In this document: piece by piece, positions 24,396-32,723 of the stretch
Layout: each line of letters begins with the position of its first letter
Position numbering within the stretch: position 1 is the stretch's first letter
From: an uncultured Flavobacteriaceae bacterium
GTDB lineage: Bacteria > Bacteroidota > Bacteroidia > Flavobacteriales > Flavobacteriaceae
Reading direction: 5' to 3'
Assembly (NCBI GenBank): GCA_905479745.1
Contig: CAJQNO010000081.1
Location: forward strand, 1 to 52,049
Length of the DNA stretch: 52,049 nt
The notes under the pieces: generated by a model
What the model was told of the DNA's origin: nothing
What the model saw: only the letters and a program-made list of their open reading frames with translations
Database searches by the model: none
Program-made: the position numbers and the translations under genes

Positions 24396-27122
24396 CTACA
24401 AGTCATACTTCACTACCAGCATCAATATTCTCGGTAAAACGTAATATTGAGAAGTGGTGTTGAACTGCTCATTAAAGCTGTCGTTGTTCGTGAATTCGGT
24501 GTCTAATATATTGGTTGCCTGAATAGAGAATTCCCACGGACTTTCCCCCTCCTGATAATACAAATTGGCATTGAAGAACGAATAGGTGTTGTCTACCGTG
24601 TTCTCTTCGTTAGAATAGTTATAATAGTCCCACTCTGCATTGAATGAAAAGTGTTTCAGGAAACGGAGATCCATATTTGCGTAGGGCCTTTGGGTATAAA
24701 AGATCTGTTCAAGGCCACCGTTATCATAACGGTTTACAGTGAGCCTGTATCCCACTTCGAAATTAGGCCACTCTCTGAAATTAGAGCGAATACTACCTCT
24801 ATATCCCTGCGTAAGGCTTTCGCTTTCTGTAATGATATCGTTAATAAGGTTGTTCGACTTGCTTAGGGTTACATTAGCATTTAAGTTGAACTGGATCTTT
24901 TTTATGGTTTTACTGAATCGTGCAGCAGCCGAGAATGTCTCGTCCGGGAAATTACTGTCAATATTAAACAGGCTTCCCACTCGGTTAATCCCAATAACCT
25001 CTGAATTGTTCTTGAAACCTTCAATTCGGCGTGTATAATTGAGAGATCCACTAATGTTGGTATAATTGAACAAATTGAAACTAAAATAGTTGAGGCTATA
25101 CTGATGTGATAGGGCATTCTCAAGGTTTCTGTTACCCCTAAACATACTGTTGTAATTATTAAACACAAATGCCTCGGCATAGTTATTTATATCGGTATAC
25201 TCTGCAGAGATCGAGTAGTTAAACCTGAGGCTTTCACTTTTTTTAATATTCCAGATCGCGTTAAAATCGGGAAGTACCATCCAGTCATTCTGGGTAACCG
25301 TTGTTCCCAGTTGTTCGTTCTTCAGGTTATAATTATGAAGGGTTAATCCCGGAGTGAAGATAAACTCGCCTGTTTTCACTTTGTAATGCAAACCAAGGAA
25401 TGCATCGGTAAATCCGTAGGTAACATTGTTAACCAGGGGTAGATTTTCTCCGTCTATTTCGGGTGTCTCTGTGAAATTAAGCATACCACCACCATTGAGA
25501 AGCTGGAATATATTCGAATCGAATTGCTGGTTACTGTACGTGGCACCCAGAGTGAAATTTATGTTACTGGTATTATTCAGCACATAGTAATAATCGATCT
25601 TCGCATCCAGTTTGTTGGTTTTTATATTTTTCTGCTGATTTATATTGTAGCGGTTCTGGGTAGAATCCACAGGAATAATTCCACTAAAAGGGAGCAGATC
25701 TGTTATGGCATTGTAAAAAGGGTCCTCATCCTGCCAAAGATGTTGTAACTGCCCCGCAAAAATGTTATTGTCGTCCAGCGTATAATACGCATTCACGTTT
25801 TGATTGATAGAATAGGGCTTATTCTCTTTAGCCTCTTCAATATTATTGGAAGAATCGACAAACTGTGAGAGGGTGTTATCGTCTTCGGTCTGTTTGGATA
25901 TTTTGAATATCGCGTCATAATCCAACTGAAAATCGGTATTAGGCTTATACACACTACTTAATTTCATCATGGCCAACTGGCTCCTCTGGTCGTTAACACT
26001 AGCCGTTGTTTCGGTAACGCCCGAGGCTATATACTGTCTAATGGAATTATTTACAATATTGGTCCTGTTATCTGATAGTATAGCAAAACCACTAAGATCA
26101 AGCTTGCTGTTCGCCCTCCAACTGAAATTTCCTGCCAGGAACTTGGTCTCTATTTCATTGGCCCTGTTATTTTGTGCTACGGCAAATCCCAGGTCGCTTT
26201 GGCTGATATTAAAATTGGTCCCGCCTCCGCGATTAAAATTTCTAAAGCCCCCGGTAAAGTTGAAATAATCCCTCCAGGAAAAGGGCACTTCACCTATGTC
26301 GTTGAAATCGGTAATCAGGTTGATGCTGTACTCCGGGCTGTAATAAAACAACTTTGGGTGCACGAGGTATTTTGCATTATCATCGCTGTCTATACCCACT
26401 CCGGCAGTTACTTCTCCAAACCAGAAATTCTTTTTTCCTTCCTTTAGTTTAATATTAATGGCCACATTATCCTGATCGTTCCCCAGGCCTCTCATCTGGT
26501 CCACTTCATTGTAATTACGCAGTACCTCTACTTTATCTACCGCGTCTGCCGGGATGTTTTTAGTTGCCAATTTAGAATCCCCATCGAAAAAATCCTTTCC
26601 TTCTACCATTACTTTGGTAACGGCCTTTCCTTCCACTTCTATCTCCCCATCATCATTAACCTCAACTCCCGGAAGTTTTTTCATCACATCTCCCAATTTT
26701 CGTTCATCTCCACTGGTAAACGAATCGGCATTATAAACAATAGTATCCCCTTTTACGGTTACGGGCATTTCGTAAACGATCTCAACCCCATCTAATTCGG
26801 TGGATATTGATTTCAGCACGAAATCTATTTTCATATTTTCGGCATCCTCGGGAACGGTAAGAGATTTGGTTACGGTTTCGAAGCCCAGGAAACTGGCTCG
26901 AAGGGTATAGGTTTCCCCTTTTGGTAGATCGAGTTGATATAAGCCGTCTTCGTTCGTGATTCCGTAAGATTCGATGTCTCCGCTTGCCTCTATTGTGGCG
27001 ATCACATTTGCAAATTCAAGGGGCTCACTCAAGGTGTCCTGGATGACTCCACGAACTTTTATACTTTGAGCACTAAGAGAAGTGGCGAACAGTATTACTG
27101 CCGCAATAAGTAGTTTTTTCAT
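24396..27122 (-). CDS. Outer-membrane beta-barrel protein, TonB-dependent-receptor-like
   Basis: A 908-residue protein. Signal peptide at 1-18 (ending SLSAQ), then a carboxypeptidase-regulatory-like domain at about 20-110 (VRGVIQDTLSEPLEFANV, LPKGETYTLRASFLGFE), a plug-like region with VMKKLPGVEVNDDGEIEVEGK and a long barrel of alternating strands ending LMLVVKYDL. This matches the outer-membrane beta-barrel family found next to GLPGLI genes. The C-terminal strand suggests insertion in the outer membrane. The transported ligand is unknown. It starts 18 bases after a GLPGLI gene and is followed by the small membrane protein, forming an operon with both GLPGLI genes. Confidence 0.88.
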   Translation of the reverse strand: MKKLLIAAVILFATSLSAQSIKVRGVIQDTLSEPLEFANVIATIEASGDIESYGITNEDGLYQLDLPKGETYTLRASFLGFETVTKSLTVPEDAENMKIDFVLKSISTELDGVEIVYEMPVTVKGDTIVYNADSFTSGDERKLGDVMKKLPGVEVNDDGEIEVEGKAVTKVMVEGKDFFDGDSKLATKNIPADAVDKVEVLRNYNEVDQMRGLGNDQDNVAINIKLKEGKKNFWFGEVTAGVGIDSDDNAKYLVHPKLFYYSPEYSINLITDFNDIGEVPFSWRDYFNFTGGFRNFNRGGGTNFNISQSDLGFAVAQNNRANEIETKFLAGNFSWRANSKLDLSGFAILSDNRTNIVNNSIRQYIASGVTETTASVNDQRSQLAMMKLSSVYKPNTDFQLDYDAIFKISKQTEDDNTLSQFVDSSNNIEEAKENKPYSINQNVNAYYTLDDNNIFAGQLQHLWQDEDPFYNAITDLLPFSGIIPVDSTQNRYNINQQKNIKTNKLDAKIDYYYVLNNTSNINFTLGATYSNQQFDSNIFQLLNGGGMLNFTETPEIDGENLPLVNNVTYGFTDAFLGLHYKVKTGEFIFTPGLTLHNYNLKNEQLGTTVTQNDWMVLPDFNAIWNIKKSESLRFNYSISAEYTDINNYAEAFVFNNYNSMFRGNRNLENALSHQYSLNYFSFNLFNYTNISGSLNYTRRIEGFKNNSEVIGINRVGSLFNIDSNFPDETFSAAARFSKTIKKIQFNLNANVTLSKSNNLINDIITESESLTQGYRGSIRSNFREWPNFEVGYRLTVNRYDNGGLEQIFYTQRPYANMDLRFLKHFSFNAEWDYYNYSNEENTVDNTYSFFNANLYYQEGESPWEFSIQATNILDTEFTNNDSFNEQFNTTSQYYVLPRILMLVVKYDL

Positions 27123-27140: not shown

Positions 27141-28046
27141 TTATCCCCCGAAACGCCTTCCTCCACCGCCGCGTCCACCGCGACCTCTGAAATTCTCCCG
27201 CATTTCATCCATTTTTTCTTTTACGATCTCGTTATATTCTTCACGTGTTACTTCCTTTCCTTTTGTAGGAGCCACTATTTTATCGGCTTCTTTAGGATTA
27301 AGTATGATCTTAGAGCACAGCAAAGTTGTGCGATGTGCATTCAGTTCTAATATTAATCCGGGTAATCCTGCGTATTCTCCGGGTCCGTTCCCAACGGGGA
27401 TCTGTGGGGTAAACCAGGCAGTCACCTCAATAGTTTTCGGGATCTCGATCTCATCGAACGGATCTGCGGGTTCTGTCTTGGTAGTATCGGCAACCTTTTC
27501 TCCTTCATTTTCTTCTTCATTGGTATTATCCCGGTTCCTGTCGCGGTTTCTACGGCGAGCCATACTTAAATCGTTCTCGTCTATGGGTTTTACCGCCGTT
27601 GCTTTTATTGCCAGGTATTGCCCAATTTGCTTAGATTCCTTGGTAATTTGCCAATCCAGGTTAGTAAGTGTATCATTAATGAGAAACTCTTTCCCAAAGA
27701 ATTCACGCTCTTCCAGGATCTGATTGTTCTTTAAATTCTTATACTGTTTCCCGGCCGAAAAACTCCCCATCATCATAGCAAATCCACCTCTCCCGCCACC
27801 GGTTTCCAATTTTTCCTCTTCCTTATAAATGGACTCGTTGCCATTAAATGTAAGGATGAAGGTTTTTTCCAGGTAGTTTTTCATACGTTCGGCGATCTGC
27901 CTTTTCATATCTTCACTCATCTCTCGGTTTCCGAAGTTATCCATATCGACCGTGGTCTTGGATTCGTAGTAGGCAACACCACTAATATTTTGTGAAAAAC
28001 CAGTAAAGGATATCAATATAATTGCCAGAAAGGATAGTAGTTTCAT
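27141..28046 (-). CDS. GLPGLI family protein
   Basis: A 301-residue exported protein with a signal peptide (ending TGFSQ) and the family hallmark YAGLPGLILELN near residue 230. It also has the upstream motif TAWFTPQIPVGNGPGEY and a Gly/Arg-rich C-terminus (RGRGGRGGGGRRFGG). GLPGLI proteins have no known activity; they typically sit next to outer-membrane barrel genes. It is similar in layout to the GLPGLI gene at 28142, so the two may be paralogues from a duplication. It lies 18 bases upstream of the barrel gene. Confidence 0.92.
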   Translation of the reverse strand: MKLLSFLAIILISFTGFSQNISGVAYYESKTTVDMDNFGNREMSEDMKRQIAERMKNYLEKTFILTFNGNESIYKEEEKLETGGGRGGFAMMMGSFSAGKQYKNLKNNQILEEREFFGKEFLINDTLTNLDWQITKESKQIGQYLAIKATAVKPIDENDLSMARRRNRDRNRDNTNEEENEGEKVADTTKTEPADPFDEIEIPKTIEVTAWFTPQIPVGNGPGEYAGLPGLILELNAHRTTLLCSKIILNPKEADKIVAPTKGKEVTREEYNEIVKEKMDEMRENFRGRGGRGGGGRRFGG

Positions 28047-28141: not shown

Positions 28142-28993
28142 TTAACCCCCTATCCTTATTTCAACAGATCTTCCCTCACCGCGGCGGCTCGACTGAAACC
28201 GTTCCTGCATCTCCTTAGACTTCTTCTCTGAGATCTCGTCGTACTCTGCTCTACTCACAACTTTTCCTTTTGTGGGTTCTTTTATTTTTACCCCGTTCTT
28301 AGGATTAAGCACCACCTTATTACAAAGTAAGGTCTCCGTGCCATCGGATACTTCCAAAATAAGACCGGGAAGACCAAAATATTCCTGAGGCCCATGTTTT
28401 ACAGGTATCTGTGGCGTATACCAGGCCGTAACCGTATATTCCTCTTCTTCTGATTCTTCTTTAGTATCGGTTTTACCGTTCTCTGAAGAAGATACCATAC
28501 GGGTAATCGTCCTAGAATCTGTATAGGTTGCCTTAAAGCAAGTATAGGTTCCTATATTCTTGCTCTCTTTAGTTAAGGTCCAGTTTGGAAGTTCTAACAA
28601 GTCCTTGATTAGAAACTCCTTTCCCATCAATTCATTCTGATTCACGTACCGGTTCTCGGCCACATTCTTGTAGAGCTCGTCGGCTGCTCCCGAACCCGAC
28701 ACCACAACCATAACTTCTGCACCATTCCCTATCATGGTTTCCGGCTTCTCCAGGGTCGCTACTTCCTTATACATAGATTCTGTCGCAGTGAATTCGAGCG
28801 TGTACTCCTTTTCAAATTGCTTTCTTAGCATGGCCTCCATGCGATCCCGCATCTCATCGTTCATCCGCGTACTGTCCATTTGAATATCGACCTTGCGATG
28901 TGATATGTAGGTTGCTACCCCCTGCACTTCCTGTGCGAGCACTGAAAAGACCAGCATGGAGAAGATGAGAGTGAGTGTTAAGTGAGATTTCAT
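28142..28993 (-). CDS. GLPGLI family protein, first gene of the barrel operon
   Basis: A 283-residue exported protein with a signal peptide (ending SVLAQ), the motif TAWYTPQIPVKHGPQEY and the hallmark FGLPGLILEVSDG. It resembles the second GLPGLI protein throughout, including KEFLIKDLLELPNWTLTKESKNIGTY against KEFLINDTLTNLDWQITKES. The 95 bases after it contain two TTAA half-sites and possibly a second promoter. Upstream it faces the histidine kinase gene across 123 bases containing three direct repeats. Confidence 0.92.
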   Translation of the reverse strand: MKSHLTLTLIFSMLVFSVLAQEVQGVATYISHRKVDIQMDSTRMNDEMRDRMEAMLRKQFEKEYTLEFTATESMYKEVATLEKPETMIGNGAEVMVVVSGSGAADELYKNVAENRYVNQNELMGKEFLIKDLLELPNWTLTKESKNIGTYTCFKATYTDSRTITRMVSSSENGKTDTKEESEEEEYTVTAWYTPQIPVKHGPQEYFGLPGLILEVSDGTETLLCNKVVLNPKNGVKIKEPTKGKVVSRAEYDEISEKKSKEMQERFQSSRRGEGRSVEIRIGG

Positions 28994-29050
28994 AATTTAT
29001 ATTTTTTAAATTTTACAGTACAAATATGGGACAAGCTAGTTTTAATTTGA

Positions 29051-29080
29051 GTTAAGCTGTGTTAACGTGTGTTAACGCCT
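29051..29080. repeat. Three 10-bp direct repeats, probable response-regulator site
   Basis: Three consecutive decamers start with GTTAA at 29051, 29061 and 29071 (GTTAAGCTGT, GTTAACGTGT, GTTAACGCCT). The exact one-helical-turn period suits tandem binding of an OmpR-family regulator on one face of the DNA. The array lies between the divergent GLPGLI and kinase genes and ends at the kinase promoter's -33 element. Confidence 0.65.
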
Positions 29081-29112
29081 TGCCAGCCACCCGGAAATAC
29101 TTCCTACTTTTG
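29080..29112 (+). promoter_or_regulatory. Promoter of the histidine kinase/response regulator pair
   Basis: TTG (29080-29082), a 22-base spacer and TACTTTTG (29105-29112). The -7 box is exact, and the start codon at 29117 begins about where transcription should start, so the transcript may be leaderless. The direct repeats lie immediately upstream. Confidence 0.65.
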
Positions 29113-29116
29113 GGTT

Positions 29117-30604
29117 ATGAATAATTTAAAGTACAAAAGTATTCTGTATTTCATTGCAGCTGTGATCGTTGCCACTTTCTGTATCCAGGTATATTGGAAT
29201 TATAAGAATTATGAGGTGGGAAAGCAGCAATTGATAAACGATGTACAAACAAGCCTGGATAATGCGGTAGAACAGTATTATTCTGAAATCCCCAAAGAAC
29301 AATCCTTTAGTGTGATCTCTGAAGGAATGAAATTCTCATCAATCGACATGGTGGATAGTGTATCGTTTAACAGGGATTCAATTTTAAATAAATTAGGCGT
29401 TGGGGTCTTCACCGAAAATATTCACCAACGATCTTCGTTGACGCACGCTGCTTTGAAGGATAGTACCGAAATACAAATTATGATCGTGGATAGTGCTGAG
29501 AAAGGGAAGATCCTGAAAAGAACCTGGGAGATGAACGACAGCAGCCAGGATCCCATCACATCACTTTCTTCAAAAATTATTGTTTCCATAACCGAAGACT
29601 CCCTCTCTTTAAAAACCCTCGACACCTTGTTCTTAAATGAACTGGGGCGAAAGAATATTTCTTTGGACTATGGGCTCTCCTACGAAGGGATAATGGGATT
29701 AACAGAACAATTAAGACCGGAGAAGATCGAAAGTTCCAAGTTGTCAACAACTGCACAGTCTCCCTATTCATTTCACGATTATGCCCTAACAGCCCATTTT
29801 GGTAATATTACCTTAACAGTTTTAAAGAAAAATCTTCTTGGGCTGTTTTTATCATTTGTCCTGGTTGCGGCTGTGATCTTATGTTTAATGTACCTGTTAA
29901 GGATCATCCGGCAGCAAAAACAACTGTCTGAACTCAAGAACGACCTTATTAATAACATTACACATGAATTTAAGACTCCAATTGCTACCATCGGTGTGGC
30001 CATGGAGGCCATACAGGAATTCAACACCGAACAAGACATCGAAAAGAATTTACGTTATGCCAAAATTTCCCATGATCAGGTAAACAAGCTCAATGTAATG
30101 GTAGAAAAGTTATTGGAGACCGCCACGCTGGACAGTGAGAAATTACAATTGAATCTGGAAACAACAAACCTGGTGGAAATGCTGGAAAAAACCACTTTAA
30201 AAGAGATCTATGAGACCTCAGACAAACGTATCTCCTTTAAAAGCAAGGAGGAGAGTATTATGTGCGAGGTGGATGTTTTTCACTTCGAAAACGCTCTCAA
30301 TAATGTTATCGACAACGCCGTTAAATACGGAGGTAATGAAATAATCGTTACTATAGAAAGGCAAAAGGCCGGGGTGGAAATTAAGGTTAGTGATTCGGGC
30401 AATGAGCTTACCGAACAACATAGGAAACGGGTTTTTGAGAAGTTCTACCGGGTGCCCAAAGGAAATACTCACGATATTAAAGGCTTCGGAATTGGCCTTT
30501 ATTATACCAAGAAGATCATAGAAAAACACGGCGGTAGCATCGATCTGCTTCTCGACAAATTAACTACCTTCAAGATACACTTACCCTATGCGAACCAAAA
30601 CTAA
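29117..30604 (+). CDS. Membrane sensor histidine kinase
   Basis: A 495-residue sensor. Membrane helices are at about residues 8-24 and 240-263, enclosing a 215-residue periplasmic sensor domain of no family I recognise. The HisKA phosphoacceptor is H283 (NNITHEFKTPIAT), followed by an ATPase domain with N-box NNVIDNAVKYGG, SDSGNE and the G2 loop GFGIGLYYTKKI. I start at the ATG at 29117, where a transmembrane helix follows directly; the upstream extension from 29069 covers the promoter. It overlaps the response regulator gene by 17 bases, so the two are translated together. The pair faces the GLPGLI/barrel operon, which is its likely target. Confidence 0.93.
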   Translation: MNNLKYKSILYFIAAVIVATFCIQVYWNYKNYEVGKQQLINDVQTSLDNAVEQYYSEIPKEQSFSVISEGMKFSSIDMVDSVSFNRDSILNKLGVGVFTENIHQRSSLTHAALKDSTEIQIMIVDSAEKGKILKRTWEMNDSSQDPITSLSSKIIVSITEDSLSLKTLDTLFLNELGRKNISLDYGLSYEGIMGLTEQLRPEKIESSKLSTTAQSPYSFHDYALTAHFGNITLTVLKKNLLGLFLSFVLVAAVILCLMYLLRIIRQQKQLSELKNDLINNITHEFKTPIATIGVAMEAIQEFNTEQDIEKNLRYAKISHDQVNKLNVMVEKLLETATLDSEKLQLNLETTNLVEMLEKTTLKEIYETSDKRISFKSKEESIMCEVDVFHFENALNNVIDNAVKYGGNEIIVTIERQKAGVEIKVSDSGNELTEQHRKRVFEKFYRVPKGNTHDIKGFGIGLYYTKKIIEKHGGSIDLLLDKLTTFKIHLPYANQN

Positions 30605-31271
30605 AATACTACTGGCTGAAGACGAACCTTCCCTGGGGCAGATCGTTAAAGAAAGTCTGGAATCCCGTGGTTTTGAAGTAGTATTTTGTAAGGACGGGAA
30701 GGAAGCCGAAGCCAAATATCACGAAAGCAGTCCACAACTAATGGTGCTGGACGTTATGATGCCAAAAATGGACGGATTCACCTTAGCCAGGGAGATCCGG
30801 CGGCACGACAAAGACATTCCTATTATCTTTCTTACTGCCAAGTCTCAAACTCACGACGTTGTTGAAGGCTTTACCCTGGGTGGTAACGATTATCTGAAAA
30901 AACCATTCAGCATGGAAGAGCTTATTGTGCGTATTGAAAATCTCCTTAAAACAGAGCATAATAATCAAGATGAAACCGAATGTAACATTGGCAAATATGT
31001 GTTTAACCCAAAGAACCAATCGCTACGATATATGAATGAAGAGAGTATTGCCTTAACGCACAGGGAGTCACAGCTACTGCTACACTTAAATGCCAATAGA
31101 AATGCCGTTCTGGATAGATCTTTCATTCTTAAAAAGTTATGGCAAAATGATGATTTCTTTAGTGGACGGAGTATGGATGTGTTTATTAGCCGTCTTCGGA
31201 AGAAATTGAAAAAGGATAAGAGTATTCAGATAGTGAATATTAGGGGGTATGGTTATAAACTAATCTGCTAA
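30588..31271 (+). CDS. OmpR-family response regulator
   Basis: A 227-residue two-domain regulator. The receiver domain has the acidic pair E11/D12, phosphoacceptor D55 (VLDVMMPKMDG), the conserved Thr in FLTAK and Lys in LKKPF. The C-terminal winged helix (about 130-227) ends with RSMDVFISRLRKKLKKD and IRGYGYKLIC, typical of OmpR/PhoB. It is encoded overlapping its kinase. Proteins of this class bind tandem direct repeats spaced 10-11 bp, and such an array lies upstream of this same operon, suggesting autoregulation and control of the divergent GLPGLI genes. Confidence 0.94.
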   Translation: MRTKTKILLAEDEPSLGQIVKESLESRGFEVVFCKDGKEAEAKYHESSPQLMVLDVMMPKMDGFTLAREIRRHDKDIPIIFLTAKSQTHDVVEGFTLGGNDYLKKPFSMEELIVRIENLLKTEHNNQDETECNIGKYVFNPKNQSLRYMNEESIALTHRESQLLLHLNANRNAVLDRSFILKKLWQNDDFFSGRSMDVFISRLRKKLKKDKSIQIVNIRGYGYKLIC

Positions 31272-31302
31272 TTTCTACGTTGCTTTTTGTATATTGTTGC
31301 AT

Positions 31303-32097
31303 ATGAAAAGCTTTGCTTTTTTACTTTTATTATGTTCGGCTACACTTTCGGCCCAAATGCTGAAGAAAGTAGATTCCTGGCCCCTTAATGCCGATACCTT
31401 TGTAGGGATAGATTCTTATAAGAACACCTATTTCATCAAAGATATGGTCCTGCACAAAAGCGGGCCATTAGGAGAATTTGTGTTTAGGGATTATCAACTA
31501 GGACCTGTTTCGTCGGTCGATATCATCAATCCCCTGAATGTTGTTGTTTTTTACGAAGAAACCAATACAGTCGTTCTCGTGGATAACCGCCTTAATGAGA
31601 TCGAACGAATTAGTTTTAACAACCTCCCTCAATTTATCAATGTAGCCATGGCAACTAATGCCGGAAATAACCAGTTGTGGATATTCAATATTGAGACGCA
31701 GCAGCTCGAGCTATATAATTACCGAAGCGGCAGGAAAACTTTGATATCTCAACCCATATCGAGTTCGGTTTTAGGTTTGGCAAGCGATTTCAATTACTGC
31801 TATGTTCTTACAGCAGAGTCGATTCAGAAATACAATATCTACGGAAGTTTTCTATCTGAAACTTTTGCTGAAGGATTTGAAAAGATCATTCAGCAAAATG
31901 AACAACTGATAGCCGTAAAAAACAATGAGATTCATTTTCAGGCGCAGCTCGATTCGGATACTGTTCTATTACTTAATCCATTAAAAGTTCCACTTCCCGA
32001 AAACAACGTAAAAGACTTGCAGCTTACCCAAGATTTCCTGTATATTTATGACGGATTAAGCGTCCATTCTTTTACACTAACCCAACCTAAGCAATAA
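31303..32097 (+). CDS. Exported protein of unknown function, propeller-like
   Basis: A 264-residue protein with a signal peptide (MKSFAFLLLL to LSAQ). The mature part is beta-rich, with short repeated strand motifs such as NPLNVVVFYEETNTVVLVD, NQLWIFNIETQQLELYN and DFLYIYDGLSVHSF, suggesting a small beta-propeller. No catalytic motif is visible. I use the ATG at 31303 rather than the TTG at 31294, because the signal peptide then starts normally. It lies 31 bases after the response regulator and 5 before the kinase gene that follows. Confidence 0.75.
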   Translation: MKSFAFLLLLCSATLSAQMLKKVDSWPLNADTFVGIDSYKNTYFIKDMVLHKSGPLGEFVFRDYQLGPVSSVDIINPLNVVVFYEETNTVVLVDNRLNEIERISFNNLPQFINVAMATNAGNNQLWIFNIETQQLELYNYRSGRKTLISQPISSSVLGLASDFNYCYVLTAESIQKYNIYGSFLSETFAEGFEKIIQQNEQLIAVKNNEIHFQAQLDSDTVLLLNPLKVPLPENNVKDLQLTQDFLYIYDGLSVHSFTLTQPKQ

Positions 32098-32102
32098 TAT
32101 TT

Positions 32103-32723
32103 ATGCATGTTGCAATTGCAGGAAACATAGGCTCCGGAAAGACCACCCTTACCAGATTACTCGCCAAACACTACAAATGGAAGGCGCATTACGAAGATGT
32201 TGAGGACAACCCTTATCTGGACGATTTCTACAATCAGATGGAACGATGGAGTTTCAATCTGCAGGTTTATTTCCTGAACAGTCGATTTCGCCAGATCCTG
32301 GATATTCGTGAAAGCGGTAAGAATATCATACAAGACCGCACAATTTACGAAGACGCCTATATTTTTGCGCCTAACCTGCACGCCATGGGGTTAATGACCA
32401 ATAGGGATTTCGAGAACTACCGTTCGTTATTCGACCTGATGGAGAGTGTGACAAAAGGGCCGGATCTGTTAATCTATCTGCGAAGTAGTATCCCTAACCT
32501 GGTTCAGCAAATTCATGCCCGTGGACGTGAGTACGAGAATTCTATCAGTATAGATTATCTAAGCAGACTAAACGAACGCTATGAAGCCTGGATACAGGAA
32601 TACGACAAAGGCAACCTAATTGTTTTTGATGTGGACAACATCAATTTTGTGGACAATCCCGAACACCTGGGTAAGGTAGTAGAAAAGATAGACGCCGAGA
32701 TCCACGGATTATTTCAAAAATAA
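32103..32723 (+). CDS. Deoxynucleoside kinase (dNK/dGK type)
   Basis: A 206-residue P-loop kinase that phosphorylates deoxynucleosides for nucleotide salvage. The P-loop is GNIGSGKT (residues 7-14), followed by the substrate-side ERWSFNLQVYFL motif, the DRTIYED catalytic motif (DRS/DRT class) and the LID region with HARGREYE. Length fits the family (about 200-215). It ends with a strong two-way terminator. Confidence 0.92.
   Translation: MHVAIAGNIGSGKTTLTRLLAKHYKWKAHYEDVEDNPYLDDFYNQMERWSFNLQVYFLNSRFRQILDIRESGKNIIQDRTIYEDAYIFAPNLHAMGLMTNRDFENYRSLFDLMESVTKGPDLLIYLRSSIPNLVQQIHARGREYENSISIDYLSRLNERYEAWIQEYDKGNLIVFDVDNINFVDNPEHLGKVVEKIDAEIHGLFQK

Follow-up and report, generated by a model that had tools for sequence, protein, structure and literature searches.

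To our knowledge, binding sites are known for few response regulators of the Bacteroidota. SaeR of Staphylococcus aureus recognizes the sequence GTTAA-N6-GTTAA (PMC5083920), E. coli ArcA sites consist of direct repeats in tandem, spaced by about one helical turn and often numbering three or more (PMC3798270), and the CpxR box is GTAAA-N5-6-GTAAA (PMC9600279). The motif of Riemerella anatipestifer PhoP has TTTAACA as its most conserved bases; this regulator binds its own operon, and its direct targets include GLPGLI and outer-membrane barrel genes (PMC9603813). Porphyromonas gingivalis RprY also binds its own promoter (PMC3646045). In the open-access literature we found no description of a GTTAA box for RprY of Porphyromonas or Bacteroides, nor a direct one for Flavobacterium or Bacteroidetes regulators.

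An array of three 10-bp direct repeats was compared with these systems. It lies in the window, that is, the whole stretch of 52,049 nucleotides analyzed, from an uncultured Flavobacteriaceae bacterium. GTTAA starts exactly at 29051, 29061 and 29071, as the original prediction had it, and the core pattern GTTAA-N5-GTTAA-N5-GTTAA spans 29051-29075. The claimed placement between divergent genes is also correct, since the array sits in a 123-bp gap between the start of a GLPGLI gene at 28993 (minus strand) and the kinase ATG at 29117 (plus strand) (Table 1). Operators of the OmpR/PhoB type have at least two direct repeats about one helical turn apart and are linked to an OmpR-family regulator gene; here there are three GTTAA words at 10-bp spacing, and the linked gene encodes a protein with Response_reg and Trans_reg_C domains. 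Judged by its sequence, the array probably adds a new member to the OmpR-type direct-repeat operators.

Table 1. Features of the array locus, in window coordinates.
Feature	Position	Strand	Evidence or remark
Outer-membrane beta-barrel protein with carboxypeptidase-regulatory-like domain, third gene of divergent operon	24396..27122	-	PF13620, PF13715 above cut-off
GLPGLI family protein 2	27141..28046	-	TIGR01200, 166.6 bits
GLPGLI family protein 1, first gene of divergent operon	28142..28993	-	TIGR01200, 192.4 bits
Probable -7 element of GLPGLI operon promoter (CATATTTG on minus strand)	29021..29028	-	23-bp gap to array, counted from CAAATAT
Three 10-bp direct repeats, GTTAAGCTGT GTTAACGTGT GTTAACGCCT; probable response-regulator operator	29051..29080	+	Sequence; 41/48 orthologous loci; unique in genome
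Probable -7 element of kinase promoter (TACTTTTG)	29105..29112	+	29 bp after array
Sensor histidine kinase, 495 aa; mRNA probably leaderless	29117..30604	+	HisKA, HATPase_c
OmpR-family response regulator, RprY-like; presumed array binder	30588..31271	+	Response_reg, Trans_reg_C

The array shares with SaeR sites an identical GTTAA half-site, the direct repeat and an OmpR-family regulator, and we also count as a likeness that the autoregulated SaeR operon encodes accessory envelope proteins. It differs in having an N5 spacer and three copies, whereas SaeR, from a Gram-positive, has N6, two copies per site and no divergent arrangement. The array was not classed as a SaeR box because its spacer is N5 rather than N6, although N6 forms occur in divergent relatives. 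ArcA sites resemble it in their tandem repeats spaced by about one helical turn, often in three or more copies, but have 11-bp centre-to-centre spacing and serve a global redox regulon, while one site per genome is usual here. The CpxR box has a 5-bp half-site and an N5 spacer as well; membership was rejected because the half-site here is GTTAA, not GTAAA. The cpxP-cpxRA layout is divergent, with a sensor operon paired with an envelope-protein gene, as at the array locus. We know of no relationship between GLPGLI proteins and CpxP, and of no established function for GLPGLI proteins. Riemerella PhoPR also belongs to the Bacteroidota and resembles the kinase-regulator pair at the array in its published motif and targets; it differs in that PhoP has hundreds of binding sites, with one 121-156 bp upstream of phoPR (PMC9603813).

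The closest named regulator model is RprY of Porphyromonas/Bacteroides (NF051850), which is the best NCBIfam model for the regulator at 258.7 bits; this is below the curated cut-off of 370, and the protein was therefore not identified as RprY proper. Both GLPGLI neighbors pass the 50-bit cut-off of TIGR01200, and the OMP_b-brl_3 match of the barrel protein falls below its cut-off. The regulator gene is followed (31294-32723) by genes for a 267-aa protein and a probable nucleoside kinase, an order kept in many relatives; the 267-aa protein has no Pfam or NCBIfam match. At four loci (L036, L037, L038 and L046), a gene for a small, apparently exported protein (about 120-135 aa) lies between the array and the first GLPGLI gene, so that the first output gene differs among genera.

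Across the window, this array alone repeats a 5-mer perfectly three times at 10-bp spacing. Under a first-order Markov model, 0.1 perfect triples are expected per window, with P=0.00015 for the 123-bp intergenic region. The exact three-copy pattern has one match in the 3.1 Mb genome and its reversed control none. The two-copy form is not enriched genome-wide (14 matches, three of them the array itself, vs 20 for the reversed control), and a large regulon with the same box in this genome is thus unsupported. Elsewhere in the genome there are few three-copy sites with one mismatch, and these have no related gene alongside. A candidate fourth copy, TTTAA at 29041, is weak and is not kept among aligned relatives. 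The first unit in the window reads GTTAAG. Palindromic GTTAAC units occur in 21 of 41 orthologous loci, and there the array can be read without mismatch on either strand, a property that would fit a two-sided operator. Many relatives have CCGATTAG after the array, a partly conserved tail best kept in its first three bases; the corresponding positions in the window (29076-29083) read CGCCTTGC.

Kinase homologues from relatives and named genomes were gathered by protein similarity, blind to the array. Loci were treated as orthologous, by identity threshold, when the regulator had at least 58% identity and upstream DNA was present (n=48). The original prediction expected the repeats to be kept in relatives with the same gene arrangement, and the exact three-copy array is found in 41 of these 48 loci. 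Among the seven exceptions, four (L012, L014, L055 and L061) have arrays with 1-2 mismatches, L057 begins close to the end of a contig, and the array stands farther from the kinase in L011 and L066. At L011 a small exported-protein gene stands in front of the kinase, and the array separates this gene from the GLPGLI side. Of 149 genomes of the family, one per genus, a search by DNA pattern only found the array in 59 and the reversed control in 7; of the 30 pattern-found sites examined, 21 adjoin the same kinase and GLPGLI genes. In two other genera (L154:2001-2634 and L161:2001-2629), an extra three-copy array precedes similar small exported-protein genes, which are a possible second target.

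A conservation profile anchored on the array was made from 42 distinct sequences. As all were chosen for an exact array, the invariance of the GTTAA columns is not independent evidence, in contrast to the distances and the flanking elements. In the profile, conserved islands are seen at the array, to its left (CAAA(T/G)AT, a -7 element on the minus strand) and to its right (a TAnnTTTG-like element); between these three islands the DNA is close to background. In 41 of the 42 sequences, CAAA(T/G)AT or a near form stands 23 bp from the array. The right-hand element lies 27-29 bp from the array in all 42, four of them with a relaxed form. TAnnTTTG is the Bacteroidota -7 consensus (PMC7366714). No conserved -33 element was seen in the profile of 42 sequences, and Flavobacterium johnsoniae likewise yielded no -33 motif (PMC7366714). 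Transcription starts were placed from the -7-like elements. By this reckoning the array would extend from about -35 to about -65 at each promoter, a usual position for OmpR-family activators.

The locus of Kordia aestuariivivens (L066) has two genes between the GLPGLI and kinase operons. Its GLPGLI promoter has its own three repeats, with CAAATAT at the 23-bp gap, while its kinase promoter has two repeats, with TACTTTTG about 28 bp downstream. Each promoter of this separated locus therefore has its own repeats.

At 37 of the 42 loci the kinase start codon lies 4 nt beyond the -7 element (29105-29119 in the window), so that transcription should start at or next to the AUG. This spacing suggests a leaderless kinase mRNA across the family. 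The start of a paralogous kinase in the same genome looks alike (TACTTTTG GCTT ATG). Few leaders in Bacteroides thetaiotaomicron are very short (3.7% have less than 10 nt), but the examples named include two-component sensor kinases (PMC7366714).

The box extends well beyond the orthologous loci. We examined a divergent set of 42 kinase-regulator loci across the Bacteroidota, in which the regulator had less than 53% identity or was not found. GTTAA-N5-GTTAA or GTTAA-N6-GTTAA is present upstream of the kinase in 35 of them. These upstream regions, 14.7 kb in all, hold 51 boxes on the kinase strand and one on the other strand; the rest of the loci holds 7 boxes in 754 kb of strand, which makes the upstream enrichment 374-fold. 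Counts of GTTAA-GTTAA spacings peak only at 5 and 6 and then at 15 and 16, and permuted words show no peak. In most divergent loci with N5, TAnnTTTG follows the box by 27-30 bp. Many of the divergent RprY-like operons with a box show no GLPGLI neighbor. Ten regulators were compared, nine from box-bearing loci or near ones and one own-genome paralogue, and for all ten RprY was the only strong NCBIfam match, below cut-off. The box thus goes with the RprY-like regulator clade, which supports the adjacent regulator as the binder. The paralogue belongs to a second RprY-like kinase-regulator operon of the same genome (L172, G000:C168:17500-22500), with GTTAACATTTGGTTAA, an N6 spacer, upstream of the kinase.

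The original prediction of a single OmpR-type site serving both operons is supported by the conservation of the array, by its distances to both -7 elements and by the Kordia locus. We consider it probable, at about three chances in four, that the array is the site of the adjacent OmpR-family regulator, phosphorylated by the kinase, and that it reaches both back-to-back promoters. The kinase would sense an envelope signal and phosphorylate the regulator, whose molecules would bind the GTTAA decamers head-to-tail, one per helical turn. The phosphorylated regulator would then activate both promoters, controlling the kinase-regulator operon to the right (autoregulation) and the GLPGLI/GLPGLI/barrel operon to the left (output). 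The identity of the binder, the role of phosphorylation, the response of both promoters and activation as the outcome are all inferred from sequence; activation is preferred to repression because of the position of the array upstream of the -7 elements. A point against this explanation is that a single dimer would not account for three half-sites; for E. coli ArcA three repeats are proposed to hold two adjacent dimers (PMC3798270).

Repression of one or both promoters from the array is unlikely, though it has precedents: P. gingivalis RprY has been suggested to be a repressor (PMC3646045), and 34 of 50 direct Riemerella PhoP targets rise in a phoP mutant (PMC9603813). The array, however, lies 23-29 bp upstream of both -7 elements and not over them, a position that suits activation better. 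It is improbable that the regulator controls its own operon only, with the nearby GLPGLI promoter driven independently. The repeats do point towards the kinase, and divergent RprY-like operons have the box before the kinase, often with no GLPGLI gene beside it, but the array holds a tighter distance to the left -7 element than to the right one, and at the Kordia locus the GLPGLI promoter has a three-copy array of its own, at a distance from the kinase.

The genome also encodes RprY-like paralogues with a similar box. A regulator of this kind could bind the array instead, which would make the locus the output of another sensor. The box before the paralogous kinase indicates that the half-site is shared within the clade; that box has an N6 spacer, however, and the three-copy N5 form accompanies this kinase-regulator pair at most orthologous loci, so we regard a different binder as quite improbable. 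It is extremely improbable that the repeats are a functionless chance feature. GTTAA is a short word and the intergenic region is AT-rich, but the array is unique in the genome, has a very low P value for this region and is conserved at near-fixed positions across many genera even though the DNA around it drifts; as far as comparison of sequences can tell, it is not due to chance. Binding by the adjacent regulator, with activation of both operons, is thus our preferred reading.

The wide occurrence of the box at RprY-like operons and the geometry shared with the GLPGLI operon appear to be undescribed in the open-access literature. As a tentative proposal, the GTTAA box (2-4 direct repeats, N5 or N6) may be the ancestral autoregulatory site of the RprY-like clade across the Bacteroidota, driving kinase mRNAs that start with AUG. 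In Flavobacteriaceae it may have become a shared three-copy operator, in which neighboring regulator dimers would compete for or share the middle copy and so set the balance between the kinase and the divergent GLPGLI operon. The box, recognizable in sequence and at near-fixed distances to two promoters, links a widespread sensor pair with one particular outer-membrane operon. It makes the apparent leaderless start of the kinase mRNA directly testable, and it would allow the prediction of target sites for RprY-like regulators across the phylum.
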